The position numbers and the translations under genes were made by a program. The notes beneath the pieces were generated by a model. That model searched no databases. It saw only the letters and a list, made by a program, of their open reading frames with translations, and was not told the DNA's origin. From Acidimicrobiales bacterium (GTDB lineage: Bacteria > Actinomycetota > Acidimicrobiia > Acidimicrobiales > SZUA-35), in NCBI GenBank assembly GCA_020628065.1, contig JAHDFR010000019.1:1-43541 (forward strand): a DNA stretch of 43,541 nucleotides, given 5' to 3'. Shown one piece after another: positions 1,841 through 28,636 of this stretch; position 1 is the stretch's first letter, and each line of letters starts with the position of its first letter.

Positions 1841-1954
1841 GCCGCCATCCGCCCATCGAGGGTGGGTCGCCCGCTACTGCAACATCAAATCCAGCCGACA
1901 GGAACCGTTGACGCGCCAGCGTGGACACGCTGTGCCAGTAGACTTTTATATGCG

Positions 1955-4693
1955 ATGAAACTACTCGACAGAATTCTCAAAGCCGGCGACGGCAAGCGTC
2001 TGAAAGCGACGCAGAGCATTGTTGAACCCGTCAACGCTTTGGAACCGGAAATGCAGCGCCTGGACGACAGTGCTCTGCAGGCCAAGACCGCCGACTTCAA
2101 GCACCGACTGGACAACGGCGCCTCGATCGACGACCTTCTGGTGGAAGCATTCGCCGTCATCCGCGAGACGGCCTGGCGCCGAATGGGGCAACGTCACTAC
2201 GACGTCCAGTTAATGGGTGGCGCCGCACTGCACTGGGGTTCAGTGGCGGAAATGAAAACCGGCGAAGGAAAGACGCTGGTTTCAACGCTCGCCGTGTATC
2301 TGAACGCTTTGGCCGGCCAAGGCGTGCACTTGGTCACGGTCAACGAGTATTTGGCCACCCGCGATGCCGAGATGATGTCCCAGATTTACGACTGGCACGG
2401 CTTGACCACCGGACTGGTCGTGCCGGGTAACACCAATCAGGCGTTCAAACGTGAGCAGTACGGCTGTGATATCACCTACGGAACCAACAACGAGTTCGGT
2501 TTCGACTATCTCCGGGACAATATGGTCCGAACGCCGGACAACCGCACCCAGCGTCGGCACAGCTACGCCATCATCGACGAGATCGACTCCATCCTCATCG
2601 ACGAAGCCCGGACCCCGTTGATTATCTCCGGAAAGGTCCGTGGCGCCGCCGACATCTACTACCAGTTCGCCGACATCGCCAAACGCCTCCGACGCGACGA
2701 GGACTACGAGGTCGATGAAGAGAAGCGTCTGGTTGCTGTCACCGAAGCGGGAATCGGGCGAGTCGAGAGCATTCTTGACATCGAAAATCTCTATGCCGGC
2801 GTGCAGGGCGACCTGGTTCATCAGTTGAACTCGGCGTTGAAAGCCAAAGAACTGTTTCATCGGGACAAGGACTATCTGGTCAGCGACGGCGAGGTGAAGA
2901 TCGTTGATGAGTTCACCGGCCGAGTGCTGGATGGCCGTCGCTGGTCGGACGGCTTACACCAGGCGGTCGAGGCCAAAGAGAACGTAAAGATCAAAGACGA
3001 GCAGCAGACCCTGGCCACGGTGACGTTGCAGAACTACTTCCGGCTGTACGACAAGTTGGCCGGGATGACCGGTACTGCCCAGAGTGACGCCGCCGAGTTG
3101 GAGACCACCTACGGTCTAAGCGTGGTCCAGATACCGACCAACAAGCCGGTTGTTCGACTCGATCAGCCTGACCTGATCTACAAGACCGAAGACGGCAAGT
3201 TTGGAGCCGTTATCGACGACATTGAGCAAAGGGTGGCCGACGGCCAGCCGGTTCTGGTCGGAACCGCGTCGGTCGAGAAGTCGGAGAAGCTGAGTCGGCT
3301 CATGACCCAGCGGGGCGTGGCCCACGAAGTCCTCAACGCCAAAGCCCACTTCCGTGAGGCCGACATCGTGGCTCAGGCCGGCCAGCCGGGGGCGGTCACG
3401 GTGGCGACCAATATGGCCGGCCGGGGCGTCGACATCATGCTTGGCGGCAATCCGGAGAAGTTGGCGGAGGCTGACACCAAGGCCGAGGGGCTCGAGGCCG
3501 ACAGCGACGAAGCCGAGGCTTATTACGAGAAGCGGCTGGCTCACTGGCTGCCTGTCTGTGAGCGTGGTGGCGACGAAGTCCGAGACGCAGGTGGCCTCTA
3601 CGTGTTGGCCACCGAGCGGCACGAAGCCCGCCGAATCGACGATCAGCTACGGGGTCGCTCGGGCCGCCAGGGAGACCCGGGGGAGAGCCGCTTCTACCTG
3701 TCACTCGAAGACGACCTGATGCGAATCTTCGCCACCGGCGCCATGAACTGGGTGATGGATCGGGCATTGCCCGATGATGTGCCAATCGAGTCGAACATGG
3801 TCACCAAGTCGGTGGAGCGGGCCCAGAACACGGTGGAGCAACGAAACGCCGAAACTCGCAAGAACGTTCTGAAGTACGACGAGGTGTACAACCAGCAGCG
3901 CAAAGTGATTTACCAGCGCCGCGATCAAATTCTTGATGAGGGCGACCTTCGTCAAGATTCGCTGCAGGCCATCGAGGATGTGGGTGACTCGTTGATTGCC
4001 ACCCACTGTTATTCCAAACTGGACGACAGCTGGGATCTGGACTCGATGGTCACTGAGCTGCAGACCTTTTGGGAGACCGACCACACGACCGAATCGCTGT
4101 TTGAGGCTCGTAACGTTGACCAGCTCCGAGATCTTGTGGTTACCGAGGGAACCGACCGCTATCTGGCTCGGGAGTCCCAACTGGGCGAGACGGTCATGCG
4201 ACAGGTCGAGCGCCAGGTCATGTTGCAGCTCATCGATCAACGGTGGCGAGACCACTTGACCGAGATGGCTCACCTGAGAGAGGGCATCAATCTCCGTGCT
4301 ATGGGCCAGCGTGATCCGCTGACCGAGTGGCAGAGCGAAGGCTTCGACCTTTTCAAGGAGATGATGCACTCGCTCAACGTCGACTACATCCGTTACATCA
4401 TGCATGTCGAGGTGGTTCAGCCCAAGCCGGCCGAGACCACGACCGATGAAGGCGTGGAGCAGGGGACCAACGGCTCTCAGGCCCAAGGGCAGACTCAGAT
4501 AGCCCAGGCCACCACCGGCAAACGGCTGGAGACCACCGATGTTGTGGCCTCAAAAGAGGGCTCGGACGAAGCCCAGCCCGAGAAGACAGCCGATTCAGCC
4601 CAGCCTTTCGTTAAGGACGAATGGGATAAGACCCCTCGCAACGCCCCATGTCCTTGTGGTAGCGGCAAGAAGTTCAAGCACTGTCACGGCTGA
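1955..4693 (+). CDS. secA: Preprotein translocase ATPase SecA
   Basis: Motor ATPase that drives unfolded preproteins through SecYEG at the cytoplasmic membrane. 912 residues from ATG 1955 (MKLLDRILKAGDGKRLK), the typical SecA N-terminus; the frame is open further upstream, but that stretch does not look like SecA. Walker A is MKTGEGKT near residue 99, the Walker B/DEAD-type segment DEIDSILIDEARTPLI is near 208, and the second ATPase domain contains TNMAGRGVDI and the arginine-finger region QLRGRSGRQGDPG. The extreme C-terminus has the zinc-binding CPCGSGKKFKHCHG motif, preceded by a low-complexity acidic linker. That zinc tail is the SecB/ribosome-binding type and is not kept in all actinobacterial SecA proteins. 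prfB follows after 32 bases. Confidence 0.98.
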   Translation: MKLLDRILKAGDGKRLKATQSIVEPVNALEPEMQRLDDSALQAKTADFKHRLDNGASIDDLLVEAFAVIRETAWRRMGQRHYDVQLMGGAALHWGSVAEMKTGEGKTLVSTLAVYLNALAGQGVHLVTVNEYLATRDAEMMSQIYDWHGLTTGLVVPGNTNQAFKREQYGCDITYGTNNEFGFDYLRDNMVRTPDNRTQRRHSYAIIDEIDSILIDEARTPLIISGKVRGAADIYYQFADIAKRLRRDEDYEVDEEKRLVAVTEAGIGRVESILDIENLYAGVQGDLVHQLNSALKAKELFHRDKDYLVSDGEVKIVDEFTGRVLDGRRWSDGLHQAVEAKENVKIKDEQQTLATVTLQNYFRLYDKLAGMTGTAQSDAAELETTYGLSVVQIPTNKPVVRLDQPDLIYKTEDGKFGAVIDDIEQRVADGQPVLVGTASVEKSEKLSRLMTQRGVAHEVLNAKAHFREADIVAQAGQPGAVTVATNMAGRGVDIMLGGNPEKLAEADTKAEGLEADSDEAEAYYEKRLAHWLPVCERGGDEVRDAGGLYVLATERHEARRIDDQLRGRSGRQGDPGESRFYLSLEDDLMRIFATGAMNWVMDRALPDDVPIESNMVTKSVERAQNTVEQRNAETRKNVLKYDEVYNQQRKVIYQRRDQILDEGDLRQDSLQAIEDVGDSLIATHCYSKLDDSWDLDSMVTELQTFWETDHTTESLFEARNVDQLRDLVVTEGTDRYLARESQLGETVMRQVERQVMLQLIDQRWRDHLTEMAHLREGINLRAMGQRDPLTEWQSEGFDLFKEMMHSLNVDYIRYIMHVEVVQPKPAETTTDEGVEQGTNGSQAQGQTQIAQATTGKRLETTDVVASKEGSDEAQPEKTADSAQPFVKDEWDKTPRNAPCPCGSGKKFKHCHG

Positions 4694-4725
4694 CAGCCCT
4701 CGACGTTGCTAGCGTCAAAGGAACG

Positions 4726-5838
4726 ATGGCCGATCTAACCGAGGAACTCAAGGCTCTCCGCCACGAGCTGGATGAAGCTCATACCTATCTGCGGATAGAA
4801 GAGCTTCGAGCCCGGCTTCCGCAGCTGGAGACGGAAATGGGTCGCCCCGATCTATGGGACGACCCCGAGCGGGCGCGCGTCGTGCAGACGGAGTTCACCG
4901 CCGTCAAAGACGACCTCGATCTCTTCGATCGACTGTCGGGCGAAATCGAAGATGCCGACGCCATGATTGAACTGGCCCGGGAGGAGTCGGACCAGGATCT
5001 TGAGGTCGAGGCCGGCGAGCTGGTCAGCGGGTTGGCTGATGAATTTTCTGCTCTTCAGTTGCGGGCCCTGTTCACTGGTGGCTATGACGAGGGTGACGCC
5101 GTCTGTGAAGTCCACTCGGGGGCCGGGGGAACAGATTCCCAGGACTGGGCCGAGATGCTGTTGTCGATGTACCGCAAGTGGGCACAGAGCCGAGGATTCG
5201 AGTTCGAGCTGACAGATAGCCAGGCCGGGCAGGAGGCGGGCATCACATCAGCCGACTTTGTCATTCGCGGTCGCCATGCTTACGGTTGGTTGCAAGCCGA
5301 GCGTGGAGTGCACCGACTGGTCCGAATCTCGCCGTTCGACTCAAATGCCCGGCGACACACAGCGTTTGCCTCGTTTGGAGTGGTTCCCTACATCGAGGAC
5401 GCCACCGACCAGGTTGACATCGATGAAAAGGATCTTCGGGTTGACGTCTTCCGGTCGTCAGGTGCCGGTGGGCAACACGTCAACACCACCGATTCCGCGG
5501 TTCGTATCACCCACCTGCCGAGCGGCATCGTCGTTTCCTGCCAGAACGAGCGGAGCCAGCACCAGAACAAGGACCGCTGTATGCAGATGCTGGCGATGAA
5601 ACTGGTGGATCTTGAGCGTCAGAAACGCGAAGCCAAGCTGGCTGAAGAGGCCGGCGAGTCCAAGAAAGTCGAGTGGGGAAGTCAGATTCGCAGCTACGTG
5701 CTGCAGCCGTACCAGCAGGTGAAGGATGAACGAAGCGGGTTCACTTCAGGAAACCCCGATGGCGTCCTGGGCGGCGAGGTTGGCCAGTTCATGGAAGCCT
5801 GGCTTCGATGGCGCCGAGCGGGCGGCGACAAGAACTAA
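4726..5838 (+). CDS. prfB: Peptide chain release factor 2
   Basis: RF2 terminates translation at UGA and UAA on the ribosome. 370 residues starting at ATG 4726, with a Shine-Dalgarno-like AAAGGAA just upstream. The stop-codon reading tripeptide SPF lies at about residue 203 (RISPFDSNARRH) and the peptidyl-hydrolysis GGQ at about 248 (SGAGGQHVNTTDSAV). There is no in-frame UGA and no frameshift near codon 25, so the programmed +1 autoregulation known from E. coli is not used here. Because RF2 competes with selenocysteine insertion at UGA, its presence is relevant to the UGA-containing gene at 18.4 kb. Confidence 0.97.
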   Translation: MADLTEELKALRHELDEAHTYLRIEELRARLPQLETEMGRPDLWDDPERARVVQTEFTAVKDDLDLFDRLSGEIEDADAMIELAREESDQDLEVEAGELVSGLADEFSALQLRALFTGGYDEGDAVCEVHSGAGGTDSQDWAEMLLSMYRKWAQSRGFEFELTDSQAGQEAGITSADFVIRGRHAYGWLQAERGVHRLVRISPFDSNARRHTAFASFGVVPYIEDATDQVDIDEKDLRVDVFRSSGAGGQHVNTTDSAVRITHLPSGIVVSCQNERSQHQNKDRCMQMLAMKLVDLERQKREAKLAEEAGESKKVEWGSQIRSYVLQPYQQVKDERSGFTSGNPDGVLGGEVGQFMEAWLRWRRAGGDKN

Positions 5839-16180: not shown

Positions 16181-16783
16181 ATGACAAGTCCCCTTGGGTT
16201 GCCCACCGCCGAGACCCCGAGTTCCGCCTTCGGTTTCGACATCTATCAGCAGCTGCTGAAACAGCGGATCGTCTTTCTGGGTCAACAAGTCGACGACACC
16301 ATCGCAAACTCACTGGCCGCACAGATTCTGTACCTCGCCGGCCAGGACGAGGACAAGGACATCTGGTTGTACATCAACTCTCCTGGCGGGTCGGTGACGG
16401 CTGGTATGGCCATCTATGACACCATGCAGTTCATCAAGCCCGATGTGGCGACGGTCTGTCTCGGCCTGGGAGCTTCCATGGGGCAGTTCTTGTTGACCGC
16501 CGGTGCTCCTGGTAAACGTTACGCACTGCCTCACGCCCGTATCCTTATGCATCAGCCCAGTGCCGGTGTGCAGGGGCAGGCTGCTGACATTGCGATTCAG
16601 GCCGAGAACCTGATCAACATCAAGCGTGAGATGGCTCAGCTGATTGCCGATCATTCCGGTCAGTCTGTTGACACCATCATCGAAGACTCCGACCGGGACA
16701 AGTGGTTCACTGCCTCAGAGGCCCAGGAGTACGGCTTGTTGGATCATGTCATCAAGCGCTCAGGTGAACTCGGCACCAGCTGA
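16181..16783 (+). CDS. clpP: ATP-dependent Clp protease proteolytic subunit
   Basis: Serine protease that forms the barrel chamber of ClpXP/ClpCP. 200 residues from ATG 16181; upstream in-frame codons overlap the tRNA-Leu and are not coding. The catalytic triad is visible: Ser99 in [10 protein letters not shown], His124 in LMHQPSAG, Asp173 in EDSDRDKWF. Other marks are [20 protein letters not shown] and [10 protein letters not shown]. This ClpP is alone here, without a second clpP or clpX next to it, which is unusual among actinobacteria where clpP1-clpP2 are often paired. The next gene's likely start lies inside the 3' end of clpP. Confidence 0.97.
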
Positions 16784-17984
16784 CGATCCGTCCAGGGTCT
16801 TCTCCTTGGACGTGAATCGCGTAGCCACCGGCGGAAGCTGCTTGGGTGCCGGCCCAGACGGTCGCACGGTCTTTGTGCCCGGGGCGATCCCGGGGGAACA
16901 CGTCGCTGTCGAGGTCGTCAAGGAACACAAGAGTCGGATCGAGGCTCGTCTGATCGAGGTGCGCTCGGCATCAGCTGATCGGGTTGCCCCGCCGTGCCGA
17001 ACCTATCAGGCGGGCTGCGGCGGCTGCGACTGGCAACACATCTCCGAAGACCGTCAACGAGAGCTCCGGGCTGATGTTGTTCGGGATTGCCTGAGGCGCC
17101 TGGCCAAGCTCGACGATGTTGAGATTGTCCCGGGTCCCAGACTTCCCGCCTCTTCTTACCGGACAACGGTGAGGGCGGCCGTGGTCGACGGGCGGGCCGC
17201 GTTCAGGAGTCGGAGCTCTCACGACGCCGTCCCGATCGAGGAGTGCTTCATCAGTCATCCCATGATTGAGAAGATCCTGACCGAGGGAACCTTTGGCCGA
17301 GCGGAGGAGATTACCGTACGGGTCGGCCACAACACCGGCGAGTCGATGGTAATGGTTTCTCCTGGGGTTGATGACGTGTCGATCCCGGATGTCAACCCTG
17401 GCTCCCCAACGGTTGTGGTCGGATCAGATGATCTGTTTGAAGGCAGTCGTCCTCACATTCACGAAAGTCTCGAGGGGCTCCGATTGCAGATGTCGGCCGG
17501 TTCATTCTTCCAATGCCGGCCGGACGGCGCGGTGGCGCTGGCCTCAGCGGTGTCCGATGTCATTGCGCCCTATGAGGGTGCCCTGCTTGATGCCTACTCC
17601 GGCGTCGGCCTGTTCGGAGCGCTCTGTGGACTCGGTCGGAGCGTAGTGGCCGTCGAGTCGAACGAGGCTGCTGCTGCAGATGCCCGGTGGAATCTTCGCA
17701 AGTACGGCAGCGTCTTTGCCGAACGGTTTGAAGATTGGGAGCCTCAGCCGGTTGGAGTGGCGGTGGCCGATCCTGCTCGTATCGGGCTTCAGTCAGCGGG
17801 TGTGGCCAAGTTGGTGGCTTGTAAGCCGGCAGCGATCGCGTTGGTGAGCTGCGATCCGGCTTCGCTGGCCCGCGATGCCGCGTTGCTGGTGGCCGCCGGT
17901 TACCAGCTGGCGAGGGTTACGGTCTTCGACCTGTTCGGTCACACGTCCCACGTCGAGACGGTTTCGGCTTTCATCAGAGGTTAA
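16746..17984 (+). CDS. 23S rRNA (uracil-5-)-methyltransferase, RumA/TrmA family
   Basis: SAM-dependent RNA m5U methyltransferase family protein, 412 residues from ATG 16746, overlapping clpP by 38 bases; GTG 16764 is an alternative start. An N-terminal TRAM-like beta domain (residues ~15-75, with [22 protein letters not shown]) is followed by an iron-sulfur cysteine cluster ([15 protein letters not shown], plus a fourth Cys in EECFISH). The C-terminal Rossmann domain shows the SAM loop [16 protein letters not shown] and the catalytic-Cys motif [13 protein letters not shown]. Target base cannot be told from sequence, so no symbol is given. The overlap with clpP suggests shared transcription. 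Confidence 0.88.
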
Positions 17985-18044: not shown

Positions 18045-18911
18045 CTAGATGTTTGCGCTGTCATGAGGCTTCATAAATGTCTCGCGCCATTGATCGTCAA
18101 CCCAACGGACAGGTGCCTGGACGGTGGTGCGAGACGCCACGGTCGACTCCAGCATCTGTATCGCCATCGTCACGTTGTCCAGTTGGGCATGTCGGTCGTT
18201 CGGCGGTCCGCAGGGGTTGCCCAGGGGAAGATCGGTGAAGAGGAAACGGGCGACGGCCACCTCCTCGACGATGTCTCGTGCGCTACCGATGATCACGGTC
18301 GGGATTCCGGCCGACTCAAGTCGCCTGGCGACCAGACTCACGGTCTGGTGACACACCGGTCATATTGGTACCAGGACGACCGCATCCACATTGTCCTCCT
18401 CGCACCATTGAGTGACGGAGTCGGCATAGGACGCGGTTCGGCGATGGCTGTACACGGTAGGCACGCCGTAGATCCGTGGGCCGAGACTTCCGATGAAGCC
18501 TTGTTCAGCCAGGCCGCTGACGGCCTCAACAGGCAAGAAGGTCTCCCGATCATCGGTGTTGGTGGCCTTCTTGTGCCAAAACAGGTCGTCGGTTGCCAGC
18601 GGTGGCAAGTCACTGGTCGGCACGGCAAACGGCAGAAATCCGGACTGGCGGGCCGAGTTGGACTCTTCTGTCCGAACGTGGCTGTCATCTTGTGGCGGTG
18701 AGGCCAGCTTTGCCGTTGTCACCAGGGCGATATTGGCCTCGGAGAGTGGTTTGGTCAGCCGGGCGATCGGTGCGGTTCGGTTCTTGGCCCAGCGATAAGG
18801 CGTATCAAAGCCCTTCGAGGCGTAGTAAAGCCGAGATCGGTCGATGTAGCTGATGGTCGTTCGGTACGCCGGATCGTCGTAGCCGTCGCCATGGGTCGGC
18901 CTGTTAGCCAT
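18045..18911 (-). CDS. Putative selenoprotein, GrdB/PrdB-like (glycine/sarcosine/betaine/D-proline reductase family), in-frame UGA
   Basis: Read through one in-frame TGA at 18360-18362, this is a 288-residue protein with Sec184 and Cys187 in the motif VLVPI-U-PVCHQTV. The frame is coherent on both sides: upstream are TPYRWAKN, LTKPLSEANIALVTTA and GFIGSLGPRIYGV; downstream are LVARRLESAGIPTVIIG, FLFTDLPLGNPCGPPNDR and TTVQAPVRW. These are features I recognise from short GrdB-type proteins, many of which carry Cys (CPVCHQ) where the UGA falls; glycine reductase GrdB itself uses a UxxC motif. A hairpin directly after the UGA fits a bacterial SECIS. ATG 18911 is preferred; a TTG at 18947 is possible. 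The actual reaction of these short homologues is unknown. Alternative: a Cys-to-UGA nonsense mutation or base error. No sel genes are in the window. Confidence 0.8.
18331..18349 (-). promoter_or_regulatory. Candidate bacterial SECIS hairpin
   Basis: On the minus strand, ten bases after the in-frame UGA, ACCAGAC-CGTGA-GTCTGGT forms a perfect 7-bp stem with a five-base loop. The loop begins 17 bases after the UGA, has G at its second position and contains the GU dinucleotide recognised by SelB in E. coli. These properties fit the bacterial SECIS rules as I recall them (apical loop about 16-37 bases after UGA, G among its first two bases). The same bases encode conserved residues HQTVSLV, so chance pairing is not excluded. 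Confidence 0.6.
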
Positions 18912-19348
18912 AGACGAAAGATAGCTCGACGGCGGGCGAGGCCCCAATACGGCTCATGGCTGGTGGTTCTACGGGCAAGATGGCCGGCGGTGGAGGCCGA
19001 CGGGCTCTGTGGTCCGCAGGCTGGGTTGTTGTTGCGTCAATGAACCAACCGGTTCACCCGTAGGAATCCCATCTGGGTGGGTTGGCTTCGCCTCAACTGG
19101 CGTCAGCAGTATTTCAAGGCCGCTACTATAGTTACAGTTGTCGTAAGTTGCGGCGACAATCGAAAGGGTTTGCGGCTACGTAGTGAGCAGCGAAACACGA
19201 CGTCGATCTGTCGAAAATCGAGCGATGAATTGGAGCGGGCTCAACGTCCGGTGTCGCCCGGTTTGCGTTTGTGAGCAAACAGCGCAACCATCGACGGCGC
19301 GGTCACTACCAATTAGTACACCGAAAACCGAAGGTTTGGAGGAAACTC
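18912..19348. other. 437-base intergenic region
   Basis: This lies between the divergent selenoprotein-like gene (-) and the SPOR-like gene (+). No convincing gene or RNA is seen. It holds two small inverted repeats: TGAACC/GGTTCA with loop AACC (19041-19056) and TTGTCG/CGACAA (19138-19159), and an AT-rich patch with TATAGT (19127-19132) that could be a -10 element, though no good -35 lies upstream. A GGAGGAAAC ribosome site just before 19349 belongs to the next gene. Confidence 0.4.
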
Positions 19349-21004
19349 ATGTGGCGGGGACGCGAGGACAATAGTCGCAGACCTGGGGTCGGCCAGCCCA
19401 ATGGGGCTGCTCAGCCGATGCCTCCAAGGGCCGGTAACGGCACGTCGGAGTGGGGATCTACCGATCGCCGCGCCCCGGCACCTGAAGACATTCGCAACGA
19501 TATTCGTTCGGCGAAGATTCGCCGAATAGGCACCGCTGTTTCGAACCAGGGCGTAACGGCCGCCAGCGCATCGGCGAACGGTTCAGGCATGGACAATGCC
19601 GCCCCAAAGCCGGAGGGCGCAGATGTTGACCTCTGGCAGTGGGGATCTGAAGCCGGTGGCAACAGCTCATCCCAGCCAGTGCCGCAGGCAGCTGGCGCAA
19701 GCAGCTCATCACTTTCCCCCCAACCAGGGCGAAACCTGGGTGTTTTCGGTGGAAGTCCATCTGTTCCACCGTCGCCCAACAGCTCGTCGGTGCCCCCGAT
19801 GAATGGTCAACCGGTTAACGCCCAAAACGCCGGGCGAGGCCCGGTGCCAGACGGCGTGACGGCCACGGTTGGACCTATGGCCGGCGGGCCCGGGCCGCAA
19901 CCGAACCCCGGTCGCCCACCGCATCCAAACTCGTCGCCGATGCCTTCGCTCGCTCCAGGAGCAACCGATGTAGGCCGCCCCCGACGCGAATTGCGGACCG
20001 AACACGATCGTTGGGGAGAGTCCGATCCAGGATGGGACCGGATGGCGCCACCTCAAGCCGGTGCGATGGACGCACGCGGTTCGGGGCCCGCATTTGAGAG
20101 CCCATCGGAGCCGCCTCGTAGGCCCAGACTGGAGCTGGCTCCGGCTGTTCAGCAGGATCGTTCGCGCACCGGCATGTTCGCCCTGCTGGGCCTGGTCGCC
20201 TTGGTGAGTCTTGGGGCCTTTTGGTTCTTCTTCCTCCGCTCCGATGACCCGGCCAGCGAATTCGAATCGGCCGATGGTCAAACGACCGACTCGGTGGAGG
20301 ACACGGTTCCGGCTGACCCTGCCGGGGCAGAGACCACTGAAGACACGACCGCCGCTCCCGCCGATCCGGCGGCTCCGCTCGCCTTGGAGGGTGCGCCGAC
20401 ACTGGCCTTGGACGGCGCTGACGGTGGTCCACTTGAAACCGAAGTTGCCTACACCATCAATTTGTCACCGGTTCCCGTCGACTCGCAGTACATCGTGATC
20501 GTCGATGGTCAGGAACAGCCGGGTCCGATCGACTTTGTGCCGGATCTTGTTCTGCCGGAAGGCCGTCATTCAATAGTTATCAGGGTCCTTCACAACGGTC
20601 AGACCGCTGACTCCAACGCAGTCGATGTGTACGTCCTGCCCGGGGCACCCCAGGCCGGTTGGCGAGCCAATCTTTCGTCGGTCGACATCGTCAACGAAGG
20701 CTGGGGCGAAGCGGTTCGCCAGTTCGACGACTATCGGGGCGCAGGCCACGAGCAGCTGGTGTTGACTCCGAGCGATCCGTACCCCGAGCTACTGCCGGGA
20801 TACTGGAACATCTACGTCGGAGGTTTCGCCGACCGGGCTTCGGCGGCCAGCTACTGCGAAGAGTTCGGTCTGGAAGTGCCAGTTGACTGCTTCCCCTCAG
20901 AGTTCACCGCAGCTGGAGCAGCTCCGGCTGAAGATCCAGCTGCCGAGGATTCAGCCGAAGGTGCTGACGCTGACAGCACCGATGCAGAAAGCACGGACGG
21001 CTAG
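19349..21004 (+). CDS. Proline-rich single-pass membrane protein with SPOR-like C-terminus
   Basis: 551 residues from ATG 19349, chosen because GGAGGAAAC lies directly upstream; the frame is open further back without a ribosome site. Residues ~1-270 are cytoplasmic, Pro/Gly/Ser/Asn-rich and probably disordered, with repeated 'WGS' motifs (SEWGST, WQWGSE). A transmembrane helix MFALLGLVALVSLGAFWFFF is near residues 272-292, followed by an acidic Thr/Ala-rich linker, a beta-rich domain (~345-440), and a C-terminal segment PGYWNIYVGGFADRASAASYC resembling the start of a SPOR peptidoglycan-binding domain. An acidic tail ends the protein. The layout suggests an inside-to-wall linker, possibly in division or envelope organisation, but this is inference; the family is not named. 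Confidence 0.72.
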   Translation: MWRGREDNSRRPGVGQPNGAAQPMPPRAGNGTSEWGSTDRRAPAPEDIRNDIRSAKIRRIGTAVSNQGVTAASASANGSGMDNAAPKPEGADVDLWQWGSEAGGNSSSQPVPQAAGASSSSLSPQPGRNLGVFGGSPSVPPSPNSSSVPPMNGQPVNAQNAGRGPVPDGVTATVGPMAGGPGPQPNPGRPPHPNSSPMPSLAPGATDVGRPRRELRTEHDRWGESDPGWDRMAPPQAGAMDARGSGPAFESPSEPPRRPRLELAPAVQQDRSRTGMFALLGLVALVSLGAFWFFFLRSDDPASEFESADGQTTDSVEDTVPADPAGAETTEDTTAAPADPAAPLALEGAPTLALDGADGGPLETEVAYTINLSPVPVDSQYIVIVDGQEQPGPIDFVPDLVLPEGRHSIVIRVLHNGQTADSNAVDVYVLPGAPQAGWRANLSSVDIVNEGWGEAVRQFDDYRGAGHEQLVLTPSDPYPELLPGYWNIYVGGFADRASAASYCEEFGLEVPVDCFPSEFTAAGAAPAEDPAAEDSAEGADADSTDAESTDG

Positions 21005-25170: not shown

Positions 25171-26114
25171 CGCTGTTCGGTTCTCCCTACGCCTTCAGCC
25201 CGGTTTACCGGCACGGCTATATGTTGACCGGCGGCCCGGCGTGCTCCGGCGTCGACCGCCCTTCGAGCCATGACTCCAACGGTATGTGATCGGTAGTCGG
25301 CACCTGCTCGTAGGTCGCTGATCGGCTGAGCCTGTGATGATGCTATTCGGGCCACATCGGTCAGAAGTCGTTCATCCACCGGCCTCCCGACCAGCTCCTC
25401 GAGACTGTGAACCTCAACAATGGTGGGTGCCACTGCGGTTAAAGCCACTGACAGGTGTTCAAGATGTCCGGAGTCGTCCAGCCGTACGCTGGCAGAGGCG
25501 CCGACGACGGCGATTTCCATAGCCCGTCGGTATTCGAGGCGAACGTAGGCGCTGCCTGAGCGTTCTGGACGACCGGGCAGGATGCAGGCTGTGCAGAGTT
25601 CGTCGGAGGTCGCTGCCGTCGTTCCCGGACCGGTCCACAGTTCGGCCGGTGAAAGTAGGCGCACTCCGTTCTGCGAGGTGAGTTCAATCATGGCGCCCAA
25701 GACGACCAGAGGGGCGCCGGTGTCCATGGCCGGAGAGCCGTTCATAACGTTGCCCCCAAGTGTCCCGACGTTCCGGGTGGCCGGCGAACCAACCAGTGCG
25801 GCGGCGTCGGCTAGCGCAGTGTAATCACCAACGACAATCTCGTCGGTCATCAGCCTGGCGTGAGTGACGGCCGATCCGAGAACAACTCGCTCTTCATCGA
25901 CGCGCACTTCCGCCAGCCCGGGAACCCGGTCAATGGCGACCAGCATCGTCGGCAAGGGGCTCTTGCCCTGGCGGGCCCCGACTACGAGGTCTGTCCCGCC
26001 GGCGATTGGTCTGGCTCCGGCTGCCATGGCCGCCAAGGCGGTATCGACGTTGTCGGCGATGGTAAATGGGGCGGCGTTGTATGACGCGGTGTCGGCCGCT
26101 GCTGGGTTGTTCAC
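25167..26114 (-). CDS. Molybdenum hydroxylase FAD-binding subunit
   Basis: 315 residues; the CoxM-like subunit that holds FAD and passes electrons to the final acceptor. FAD-binding motifs are PIAGGTDLVVGARQG (~36-50) and RNVGTLGGNVMNGSPAMD (~113-130), the latter being the TxGGN motif. The C-terminal domain ends with DYRSHTVGVMARRAV, typical of the family. It lies between the large and small subunit genes, overlapping each by four bases, so the three subunits are translationally coupled in the order large-medium-small. Confidence 0.93.
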   Translation of the reverse strand: MNNPAAADTASYNAAPFTIADNVDTALAAMAAGARPIAGGTDLVVGARQGKSPLPTMLVAIDRVPGLAEVRVDEERVVLGSAVTHARLMTDEIVVGDYTALADAAALVGSPATRNVGTLGGNVMNGSPAMDTGAPLVVLGAMIELTSQNGVRLLSPAELWTGPGTTAATSDELCTACILPGRPERSGSAYVRLEYRRAMEIAVVGASASVRLDDSGHLEHLSVALTAVAPTIVEVHSLEELVGRPVDERLLTDVARIASSQAQPISDLRAGADYRSHTVGVMARRAVDAGARRAAGQHIAVPVNRAEGVGRTEQR

Positions 26115-28510
26115 TGCTGCTCCGTTCCGTTCTCGCTTCCGCCCTGATACGGATCGCCATCGCGTGCCGTTTGCATGGCCTCCCAGATTCGCTCGGCCGT
26201 CATCGGCATCTGCCGGATTGGCGTACCAACCAGCTTGGCCAATGCACTGTTGACCGCAGCAGCGGTAGCCACATTGGGTGCCTCAGCCAGTCCCTTGGCT
26301 CCGGCCGGTCCCTCGCCCGGGTAGGACTCAATGAAGTCGACGCTTATCCGGGGACCATCGGCTGCAGTCTGAAGTTTGTATTCAAGAAGCATCGGGTTGC
26401 GCTGATTGCCCTGCTCGTCGTAGATCGTGCCCTCGGTCAAGGCTTGTCCGATGCCCATCATAATTCCGCCGTGGACTTGGCCGAGGGCCCCTGTTCGGTT
26501 GAGAATTCTTCCCGAATCGTGGGCGGCGGCGACTGATACCACTCGGGCTACGCCGGTGTCGGAGTCGAGTCGGACCTTTACGGCGTGGCAGGAGAACTGC
26601 GGGGACAGCCATGCCGCCATGCCCTGGTCACCTACACAGGTTGCCGTCACGGTGGGGTAGGTGACCTCGGCGGCCGAGCCGTGTCCGAGCAGCAGTGAGC
26701 CTCCGGCCGCCTCCGCTGCCAGCTCGGCTATTGGAACCGAAGCTGCCGGCGTTCCCGCCACCGACGCCTGCCCGTCGTTCAGCACGATGTCAGTTGGAGA
26801 GGCTTCGAGCCGGTCGGCGGCCAGCTGGCGAAGCTGATCGGCGACTTGAGCGGCTGCGGCCATGACGGCGCGCCCGTTGTTGAACAATGTCTGGGATCCG
26901 GTTGCCCCCATGTCGTAGGGAGCCGCGCTGGTGTCCTGATAGACCAGCTCGAAGTCTTCGGGGTCCATTCCGACCTCGTCGGCTGCCAGTTGACGCATCG
27001 TCATGACCGCCCCGGTGCCACACTCCTGAGCTCCGGTGATGATTTGGCCTTTGCCGTCGCTGTCAATCTTGAGGTAGGCGCCGGACGGCATCGAGAACGA
27101 CGGCCACCAACCGACAGCTACTCCGTACGCTTCATCTTCGGCCAGGTCACCGGCTCGCTCGTCGTCTGGATCCCCGTCGGGGATGAGCGCGGAAATGGCG
27201 GTATCGATGCAGTCCTGAAGTCCTATGTCTCCGTACACCTGGCCGACTGGACCGGTGGATCCGGAGCGCAGGCCGTTGAGGCGTCGGAAGGCAACGGGAT
27301 CCATATCAATCGCTTTGGCCAACTCGTCGGTGTGAGACTCCACCGCCCAACACCCTTGCGGTGCTGTCGGGGCCCGGACCGAGCCGGCCGGCTGATGGTT
27401 GGTGTAGGCGAGATGGGCCTCGATGTCGAGGTTTGGTATCTCGTAGGGACCGGTGGCCTGCATGGCGGCCAGTTGCGGGAAGAACGCCTTGTCGGCCAAG
27501 TAGGCTCCGCCGTCGAGCACCAGGCGGCCGGTTCTGGCCAAGATCTTGCCGTCCGAGTCAAGCCCGGTCGTGAGCTCCACCACCATGGCTTCTCGTCGGC
27601 GATCAGGGGCCAGGAACTCCTCGGCTCGGCTGAAGACCAGTTTGACCGGTCGTTTGGCGGCGCGAGCAAGGGCGGCGATGTGGGCCTCGAAGTGGAATCC
27701 GCACTTGCCGCCGAAACCGCCTCCGAGATGGGGTACAACCACTCTCACCCGGTTGGTTGGCAGCCCCAGCGTTTCACAAATACCCGCTCGGGCGTCAAAG
27801 GGAACCTGAGTAGATGTCCAAACGGTAAGCTTCTCGCCCTCCCACTGGGCGACGACGGCCCGAGGTTCGATGGGCACGGCATGACAGCCGTCGGCCACGT
27901 AGCGGCTCGATATGACGGTTTCGGCCGAAGCCATCGCACCGGCGGCATCGCCCCTCGAGAGCGAGGAGAACGAGGCGGTGTTTCCTGATCGGATCACGCC
28001 TTCGTCGGCCTCATACGACGCCCAGTCCTCGTGAACCAGTGGAGAGCCCTCTTGTAGAGCGGCTTCGGCGTCAACCACCGGTTCCAACGGCTCCAGATCG
28101 GCATTGATGGCGGCGACGGCGGCTTCGGCTGCTTCCACGGTGGTGGCGGCTACAGCCGCCAGAATCTCACCCTCAAACCGGACAACGTCCCGGGCGAACA
28201 AACGGCGATCAGCGACCGCAGGGCTGTAGCGCACATCCGGCACGTCGGCGTCACTCAGCACCGCCAGCACCCCTGGCACTTGGCGAGCGGCCTCAAGGTC
28301 GAGCGAGCGAATTCGGGCGCTTGACACTCCGGCATACAGGAACTTGGCATGGAGCATGCCGGCCAGTTGAAGGTCTGCGGTGTAGCGACCCGAGCCGGTC
28401 ACCTTGTCTGGGCCGTCGGCCCGGACGAAGCGGCGGTGATGTCGCTGCGAACTTGACGAAGCCTCACCACTCGATTGATCGACCGGGTTCGTGTCAACGG
28501 TGTCCGTCAC
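26111..28510 (-). CDS. Molybdenum hydroxylase large (molybdopterin-binding) subunit
   Basis: 799 residues from GTG 28510, which has AGGAG five bases upstream; ATG 28525 is an alternative. It is the xanthine-oxidase-family catalytic subunit. Visible are VRADGPDKVTGSGRYTADL at the N-terminus, the Moco-binding loop HLGGGFGGKCGFHFEAH, the VRAPTAPQGCWAVES segment, QECGTGAVMTMRQLAADE, ATGSQTLFNNGRAV, and AKGLAEAPNVATAAAVNS containing the Glu expected as catalytic base. The active-site loop of form I CO dehydrogenase (AYRCSFR) is not present, so CO oxidation is unlikely. The true substrate could be an N-heterocycle, aldehyde or nicotinate-like compound. No Moco maturation genes are nearby. Confidence 0.9.
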   Translation of the reverse strand: MTDTVDTNPVDQSSGEASSSSQRHHRRFVRADGPDKVTGSGRYTADLQLAGMLHAKFLYAGVSSARIRSLDLEAARQVPGVLAVLSDADVPDVRYSPAVADRRLFARDVVRFEGEILAAVAATTVEAAEAAVAAINADLEPLEPVVDAEAALQEGSPLVHEDWASYEADEGVIRSGNTASFSSLSRGDAAGAMASAETVISSRYVADGCHAVPIEPRAVVAQWEGEKLTVWTSTQVPFDARAGICETLGLPTNRVRVVVPHLGGGFGGKCGFHFEAHIAALARAAKRPVKLVFSRAEEFLAPDRRREAMVVELTTGLDSDGKILARTGRLVLDGGAYLADKAFFPQLAAMQATGPYEIPNLDIEAHLAYTNHQPAGSVRAPTAPQGCWAVESHTDELAKAIDMDPVAFRRLNGLRSGSTGPVGQVYGDIGLQDCIDTAISALIPDGDPDDERAGDLAEDEAYGVAVGWWPSFSMPSGAYLKIDSDGKGQIITGAQECGTGAVMTMRQLAADEVGMDPEDFELVYQDTSAAPYDMGATGSQTLFNNGRAVMAAAAQVADQLRQLAADRLEASPTDIVLNDGQASVAGTPAASVPIAELAAEAAGGSLLLGHGSAAEVTYPTVTATCVGDQGMAAWLSPQFSCHAVKVRLDSDTGVARVVSVAAAHDSGRILNRTGALGQVHGGIMMGIGQALTEGTIYDEQGNQRNPMLLEYKLQTAADGPRISVDFIESYPGEGPAGAKGLAEAPNVATAAAVNSALAKLVGTPIRQMPMTAERIWEAMQTARDGDPYQGGSENGTEQQ

Positions 28511-28636
28511 CTCGACTCCTCTCATCGCCGAGCCATTCGAGCCCGGCCTCGTGTCGAAAGCATGCCAAAGTCTCCGCCTCTTCGGCACACCGAAAGAATC
28601 GGAGCCGAGGTGTCTACCGTTCTGAGTTGCTCTGGC

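Follow-up and report, generated by a model that had tools for sequence, protein, structure and literature searches.

Judging from its sequence and those of its relatives, the gene on the minus strand at 18045-18911 of the window (the whole stretch analysed, 43,541 nucleotides from an Acidimicrobiales bacterium) carries an in-frame UGA that is decoded as selenocysteine, with a probability of about 95%, and the product is a genuine selenoprotein of the PrdB/GrdB type. The features of the locus are as follows.

18045..18911, minus strand: PrdB/GrdB-like selenoprotein gene, 288 aa, with the ATG start at 18911 and the TAG stop at 18047-18045; assigned by family matches
18360..18362, minus strand: in-frame TGA, predicted selenocysteine residue 184 of U-P-V-C; the column is Sec/Cys across homologues
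18331..18349, minus strand: bSECIS hairpin, arms 18349-18343 and 18337-18331 (ACCAGAC/GUCUGGU), apical loop 18342-18338 (CGUGA), 17 nt after the UGA
16644..17984, plus strand: tRNA (uracil-5-)-methyltransferase-like gene, the convergent neighbour; its position is kept in relatives and it is not part of the system
19271..21004, plus strand: 577-aa gene without a Pfam match, the divergent neighbour; this adjacency is limited to close relatives

Reading frame and the UGA column

The ORF list gives two minus-strand frames, 18360-18947 and 18045-18356, in the same frame and with a single TGA between them. The read-through of 18911-18045 produced a 288-aa sequence in which the only UGA is codon 184 (IUPVCHQ), which confirmed the claim of the earlier note that the two adjacent frames join without a frameshift. 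The sequence around the UGA was VLVPI-U-PVCHQTVSLVARRLE, with the TAG stop at the end of the frame, and the UxxC motif was present as U184-P-V-C187.

The codon at the position of the TGA was read across 84 homologous genes, the window's included (regions L109 and L115 were left out of this reading). It was UGA in 80 of them, a Cys codon (TGT or TGC) in four, and any other codon in none. Such a concentration of UGA at exactly one codon, with TGT or TGC in the rest, is far above chance, and it answered the question of whether the column is always Cys or Sec. In a 50-sequence protein alignment, with Sec entered as Cys, the column was invariant even at 23% identity. Both flanks of the UGA were conserved in the protein alignment, in agreement with the earlier argument from the flanks against gene decay. 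The Cys homologues were single uninterrupted proteins and were mostly nested among the Sec forms in the tree; the row for L023 was mislabelled as Cys, its gene having a UGA, and should be disregarded, and the tree's counts of Sec/Cys changes are affected. On this comparative evidence, selection maintains Sec at the UGA.

The search for family members covered 61 genomes, the window's own together with 60 relatives from its genus, family and order; 35 of them contained members, almost every one with a single internal TGA. Among the Actinomycetota, 63 of 296 sampled genomes had members, mostly with UGA; the more remote members may include genuine PrdB or GrdB proteins. The earlier view that a Sec-containing member would be unusual in an actinobacterium does not agree with these counts for the order and the phylum. 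Beyond the order, relatives that kept the UGA/Cys column occurred in Alpha-, Beta- and Gammaproteobacteria and in a Chloroflexota bin. These relatives were mostly metagenome bins, and the members labelled Gammaproteobacteria (L086) and Chloroflexota (L087) hardly differed from each other, and individual taxon labels may therefore be in error. No relatives were found in the viral contigs scanned.

Hairpin and selenocysteine machinery

When positions are numbered from the T of the TGA (position 0), bases 14-19 of the message pair with bases 30-25 around the CGUGA loop, and A13-U31 extends the stem. The published bSECIS model has a loop of 3-9 nt with G in one of the first two positions, a stem of 4-16 bp and a distance of 16-37 nt from the UGA (PMC13188914). 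Set against that model (PMC13188914), the hairpin had a 5-nt loop, G at position 2, 6-7 bp, a spacing of 17 nt and -11 kcal/mol.

Selection on the hairpin was assessed at synonymous sites. All six pairs were present in 58 of the 80 Sec genes, compared with a mean of 2.3 and a maximum of 7 genes in 500 synonymous re-draws that used the family's own codon usage. The stem had been picked by eye from the same sequences ahead of this test, which matters little because sliding the register by 1-3 bases destroyed the pairing and because the margin was 58 against at most 7. In codon choice, the Ser of QTVSL was AGT in 46 of 51, though AGT is the rarest background Ser codon, and Val was GTG in 59 of 76. 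For 18 diverse sequences, paired cells amounted to 96.8% (71% when shuffled), double changes to 25 (4.4 when shuffled) and the covariation score to 0.664 (0.141 when shuffled, equalled in 0 of 500 shuffles), with changes on both sides in five of the seven pairs. The folding energy per sequence was moderately informative (mean z of -1.3 against synonymous shuffles, and -0.09 for control windows), and the fixed-stem synonymous test, not the folding energy, is the decisive one. The four Cys homologues kept 3-5 of the six pairs and none kept all six. In the paralogues of the C376 type, the main stem was imperfect, and 14 of 14 had a complete stem displaced by 5 nt (CG[GA]UC-GGUCU-GAUCG).

The genome of the window was searched for the decoding genes selA, selB, selD and selC, as had been proposed earlier. 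The three protein genes were present and the selC tRNA was not found in the assembly. The genes selA and selB adjoin on one contig (C89), and selD lies on another (L015, G000:C14:8510-9445) with a UGA of its own in HGAGUACKLSP, the region that holds the catalytic Cys or Sec of SelD. Such a selD gene is independent evidence for Sec decoding in this genome. In the window's assembly (G000, a MAG of 432 contigs), the matches to RF01852 were Ser, Leu, Gly and Tyr tRNAs, and a congener's tRNA-Sec used as query gave no match there.

In the wider set of 37 genomes, which included G000, tRNA-Sec scored over the cut-off in 27, and nearly all congeners belonged to these 27. An integrase-like gene, judged by eye to be of the tyrosine-recombinase type, was observed ~1-3.6 kb from the tRNA-Sec in three congeners (L141/G009, L143/G001 and L145/G011). 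Two genomes that consist of a single contig, G042 and G172, had the tRNA. G172, which is closed and belongs to the window's order, also had a close homologue in which the UGA and this hairpin are both present. In four genomes (G006, G009, G010 and G018), the tRNA-Sec was located within ~300 bases of a contig end. We infer that selC may be an integration site or hotspot that breaks assemblies, and for this reason its absence from the window's assembly is probably a gap.

The proposal that the gene is a pseudogene, or that a sequencing or assembly error is involved, would mean that the TGA either terminates translation or contains a miscalled base. The origin of the window from a fragmented MAG and the failure to find tRNA-Sec in it are consistent with that proposal. 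Nevertheless, its probability is close to negligible, since many genomes of independent assembly, the single-contig G172 among them, have the same UGA, the flanks are conserved on both sides, the hairpin is selected at synonymous sites, and UGA and SECIS are conserved across phyla. Alternatively, the functional products might be two separate polypeptides, or termination at the UGA might be deliberate, and the ORF list formally contains two ORFs. Against this stand the uninterrupted Cys homologues, a break that in the structural model would separate a core strand from a helix within a single domain, and the loss of the complete six-pair hairpin from all four Cys forms, so that such an arrangement is very improbable. 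The reading of the gene as a selenoprotein gene, as first suggested from the window, was borne out by the sel genes and by a UGA column that is always Sec or Cys.

Relation to PrdB, GrdB and the paralogues

The best NCBIfam match of the protein was PrdB (TIGR04483), with 66.1 bits and an E value of 3e-18 against a cut-off of 300. The Pfam family GRDB (PF07355) matched with 27.6 bits, above its gathering score of 22, and the models TIGR01918 and TIGR01917 gave 43.1 and 38.2 bits against cut-offs of 65.45 and 602, respectively. All 50 members scanned matched the same five models, including TIGR04483 PrdB and the GrdB models. The UGSC-family model NF041046 reached 13.5 bits against a cut-off of 125, and the motif here is UPVC. 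The earlier description as PrdB/GrdB-like therefore holds as far as homology and the Pfam GRDB score are concerned, whereas the protein falls under the NCBIfam cut-offs for PrdB and GrdB.

Compared with PrdB (TIGR04483), the protein is homologous over residues 50-267 and has the same short single-domain length and a Sec in UxxC (PMC13188914). It differs in its low score, in its UPVCHQ motif and in the absence of a prd operon, and no PrdA match was obtained in the window's genome (a search without a positive control). Compared with GrdB (PF07355, TIGR01918), it passes the Pfam gathering score, and the alignment covers the C-terminal half including the Sec region (profile 199-428, a full GrdB being about 430 aa), but the N-terminal ~200 residues are absent and the second Cys of UxxCxxC is missing. 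The best GrdA match in the genome had 17.1 bits, below the cut-off of 22, and the search of the genome for a Gly_reductase domain, also without a positive control, gave no match.

Selenoproteins of this description have been reported from the sea. UxxC 'PrdB' selenoproteins ranked among the most abundant in both the Sargasso Sea survey, with 42 genes (PMC1088965), and the GOS survey, with 235 (PMC2398784). They share the UxxC Sec motif and pfam07355 with the present protein (PMC1088965, PMC2398784), and, going by their description, they are likely to be the same subfamily. Since UxxC 'PrdB' selenoproteins are known from marine metagenomes, the kind of protein is already known, and it is common in the bacterium's relatives. 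The literature search for this protein in Acidimicrobiia, or under 'PrdB-like' or 'GrdB-like', found nothing on point.

Duplication into several motif types within Acidimicrobiales, nearly all with their own covarying SECIS, seems to be less described. The motif types were UPVCHQ, UPVCHV, UPLCT/UPFCT, UP[LI]C[TS]G, UPDCC and UPLDH. Two further UGA paralogues with their own SECIS hairpins were seen in the window's genome, G000:C376:81111-81863 (L049, motif UPVCHQSVG) and G000:C45:11848-12555 (L050, motif UPVCHVSVG). In L122 and L124 (UPDCC), the UGA was kept, the motif had an extra Cys and the hairpin in the usual register was poor. In L102 and L116 (UPLDHQTVG), Asp replaced the second Cys of UxxC and the UGA was kept. 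With the resolving Cys missing from these UPLD paralogues, UxxC chemistry does not extend to every member of the wider family.

Within the genus, the surroundings of the gene were of the housekeeping kind, with the methyltransferase gene convergent and the 577-aa gene divergent beside a helicase; elsewhere the neighbours differed. No conserved operon partner was found in the gene neighbourhoods of relatives, and the substrate is thus not constrained by context. Elsewhere in the window, 1862-5838 holds secA and, after it, a gene for a class-I peptide release factor, and 26111-28588 encodes a molybdopterin-binding subunit of the xanthine dehydrogenase/aldehyde oxidase type, downstream of which smaller genes continue on that strand.

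Predicted structure, possible reaction and significance

The AlphaFold2 model (pLDDT 88.6) was an alternating Rossmann-like alpha/beta domain in which Sec184 lies between the core strand 177-181 and the helix 185-200, a placement that would suit a reactive selenolate. Solved structures searched by sequence contained no credible relative, and Foldseek with the model gave no match at E <= 0.001. VIA-align with the model returned generic alpha/beta folds only, without a clear match among solved structures.

From the model and by analogy, the protein is most likely, at somewhat better than even odds, a stand-alone, single-subunit Sec/Cys reductase of the PrdB/GrdB superfamily. SelB and Sec-tRNA(Sec) would recode the UGA to give the 288-aa protein. 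Given the predicted fold and the chemistry of PrdB and GrdB, the selenolate of Sec184 would attack a small substrate. This attack might reductively cleave a carbon-heteroatom bond, C-N or another, or it might reduce a bond resembling that of a peroxide or a disulfide. Cys187 would then resolve the Se adduct to a selenenylsulfide, and a cellular dithiol would regenerate the enzyme.

Two other functions were weighed against this. A true D-proline reductase subunit PrdB, or a GrdB subunit of glycine, betaine or sarcosine reductase, would agree with PrdB as the best NCBIfam match, with the score above the Pfam gathering threshold and with UxxC. It is improbable in view of 66 bits against the PrdB cut-off of 300 and 43 against 65 for TIGR01918, the lack of operon partners and of the N-terminal half of GrdB, the GrdA match below cut-off, and the PrdA and Gly_reductase searches, which found nothing but had no positive control. 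There is a small but appreciable chance of a non-enzymatic role, in which a ligand-binding Rossmann-like protein would sense redox, or bind a soft metal, through its Sec/Cys pair. The model bears a weak likeness (Z up to 9.5) to solute-binding domains and to sensor domains of the LacI type, and UPxC would be a plausible metal-binding pair. On the other side, such Z values are common among unrelated alpha/beta folds, the rmsd was ~4-6 over an alignment of roughly half the residues, and no DNA-binding domain was seen. Beyond the reductase reading of the single protein, we tentatively propose, at slightly less than even odds, that the group could be a separate, partner-free family of Sec-dependent reductases with at least six motif types in Acidimicrobiales, one of them without the resolving Cys and nearly all with their own covarying SECIS, and that its reaction would be neither proline nor glycine reduction.

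Genes of this kind tend to be split in two or dropped by annotation pipelines, and the 80 UGA members with covarying SECIS form a clean test set. Moreover, Sec-dependent relatives of PrdB and GrdB are widespread and have been repeatedly duplicated outside the amino-acid-fermenting clostridia in which the family was characterised.
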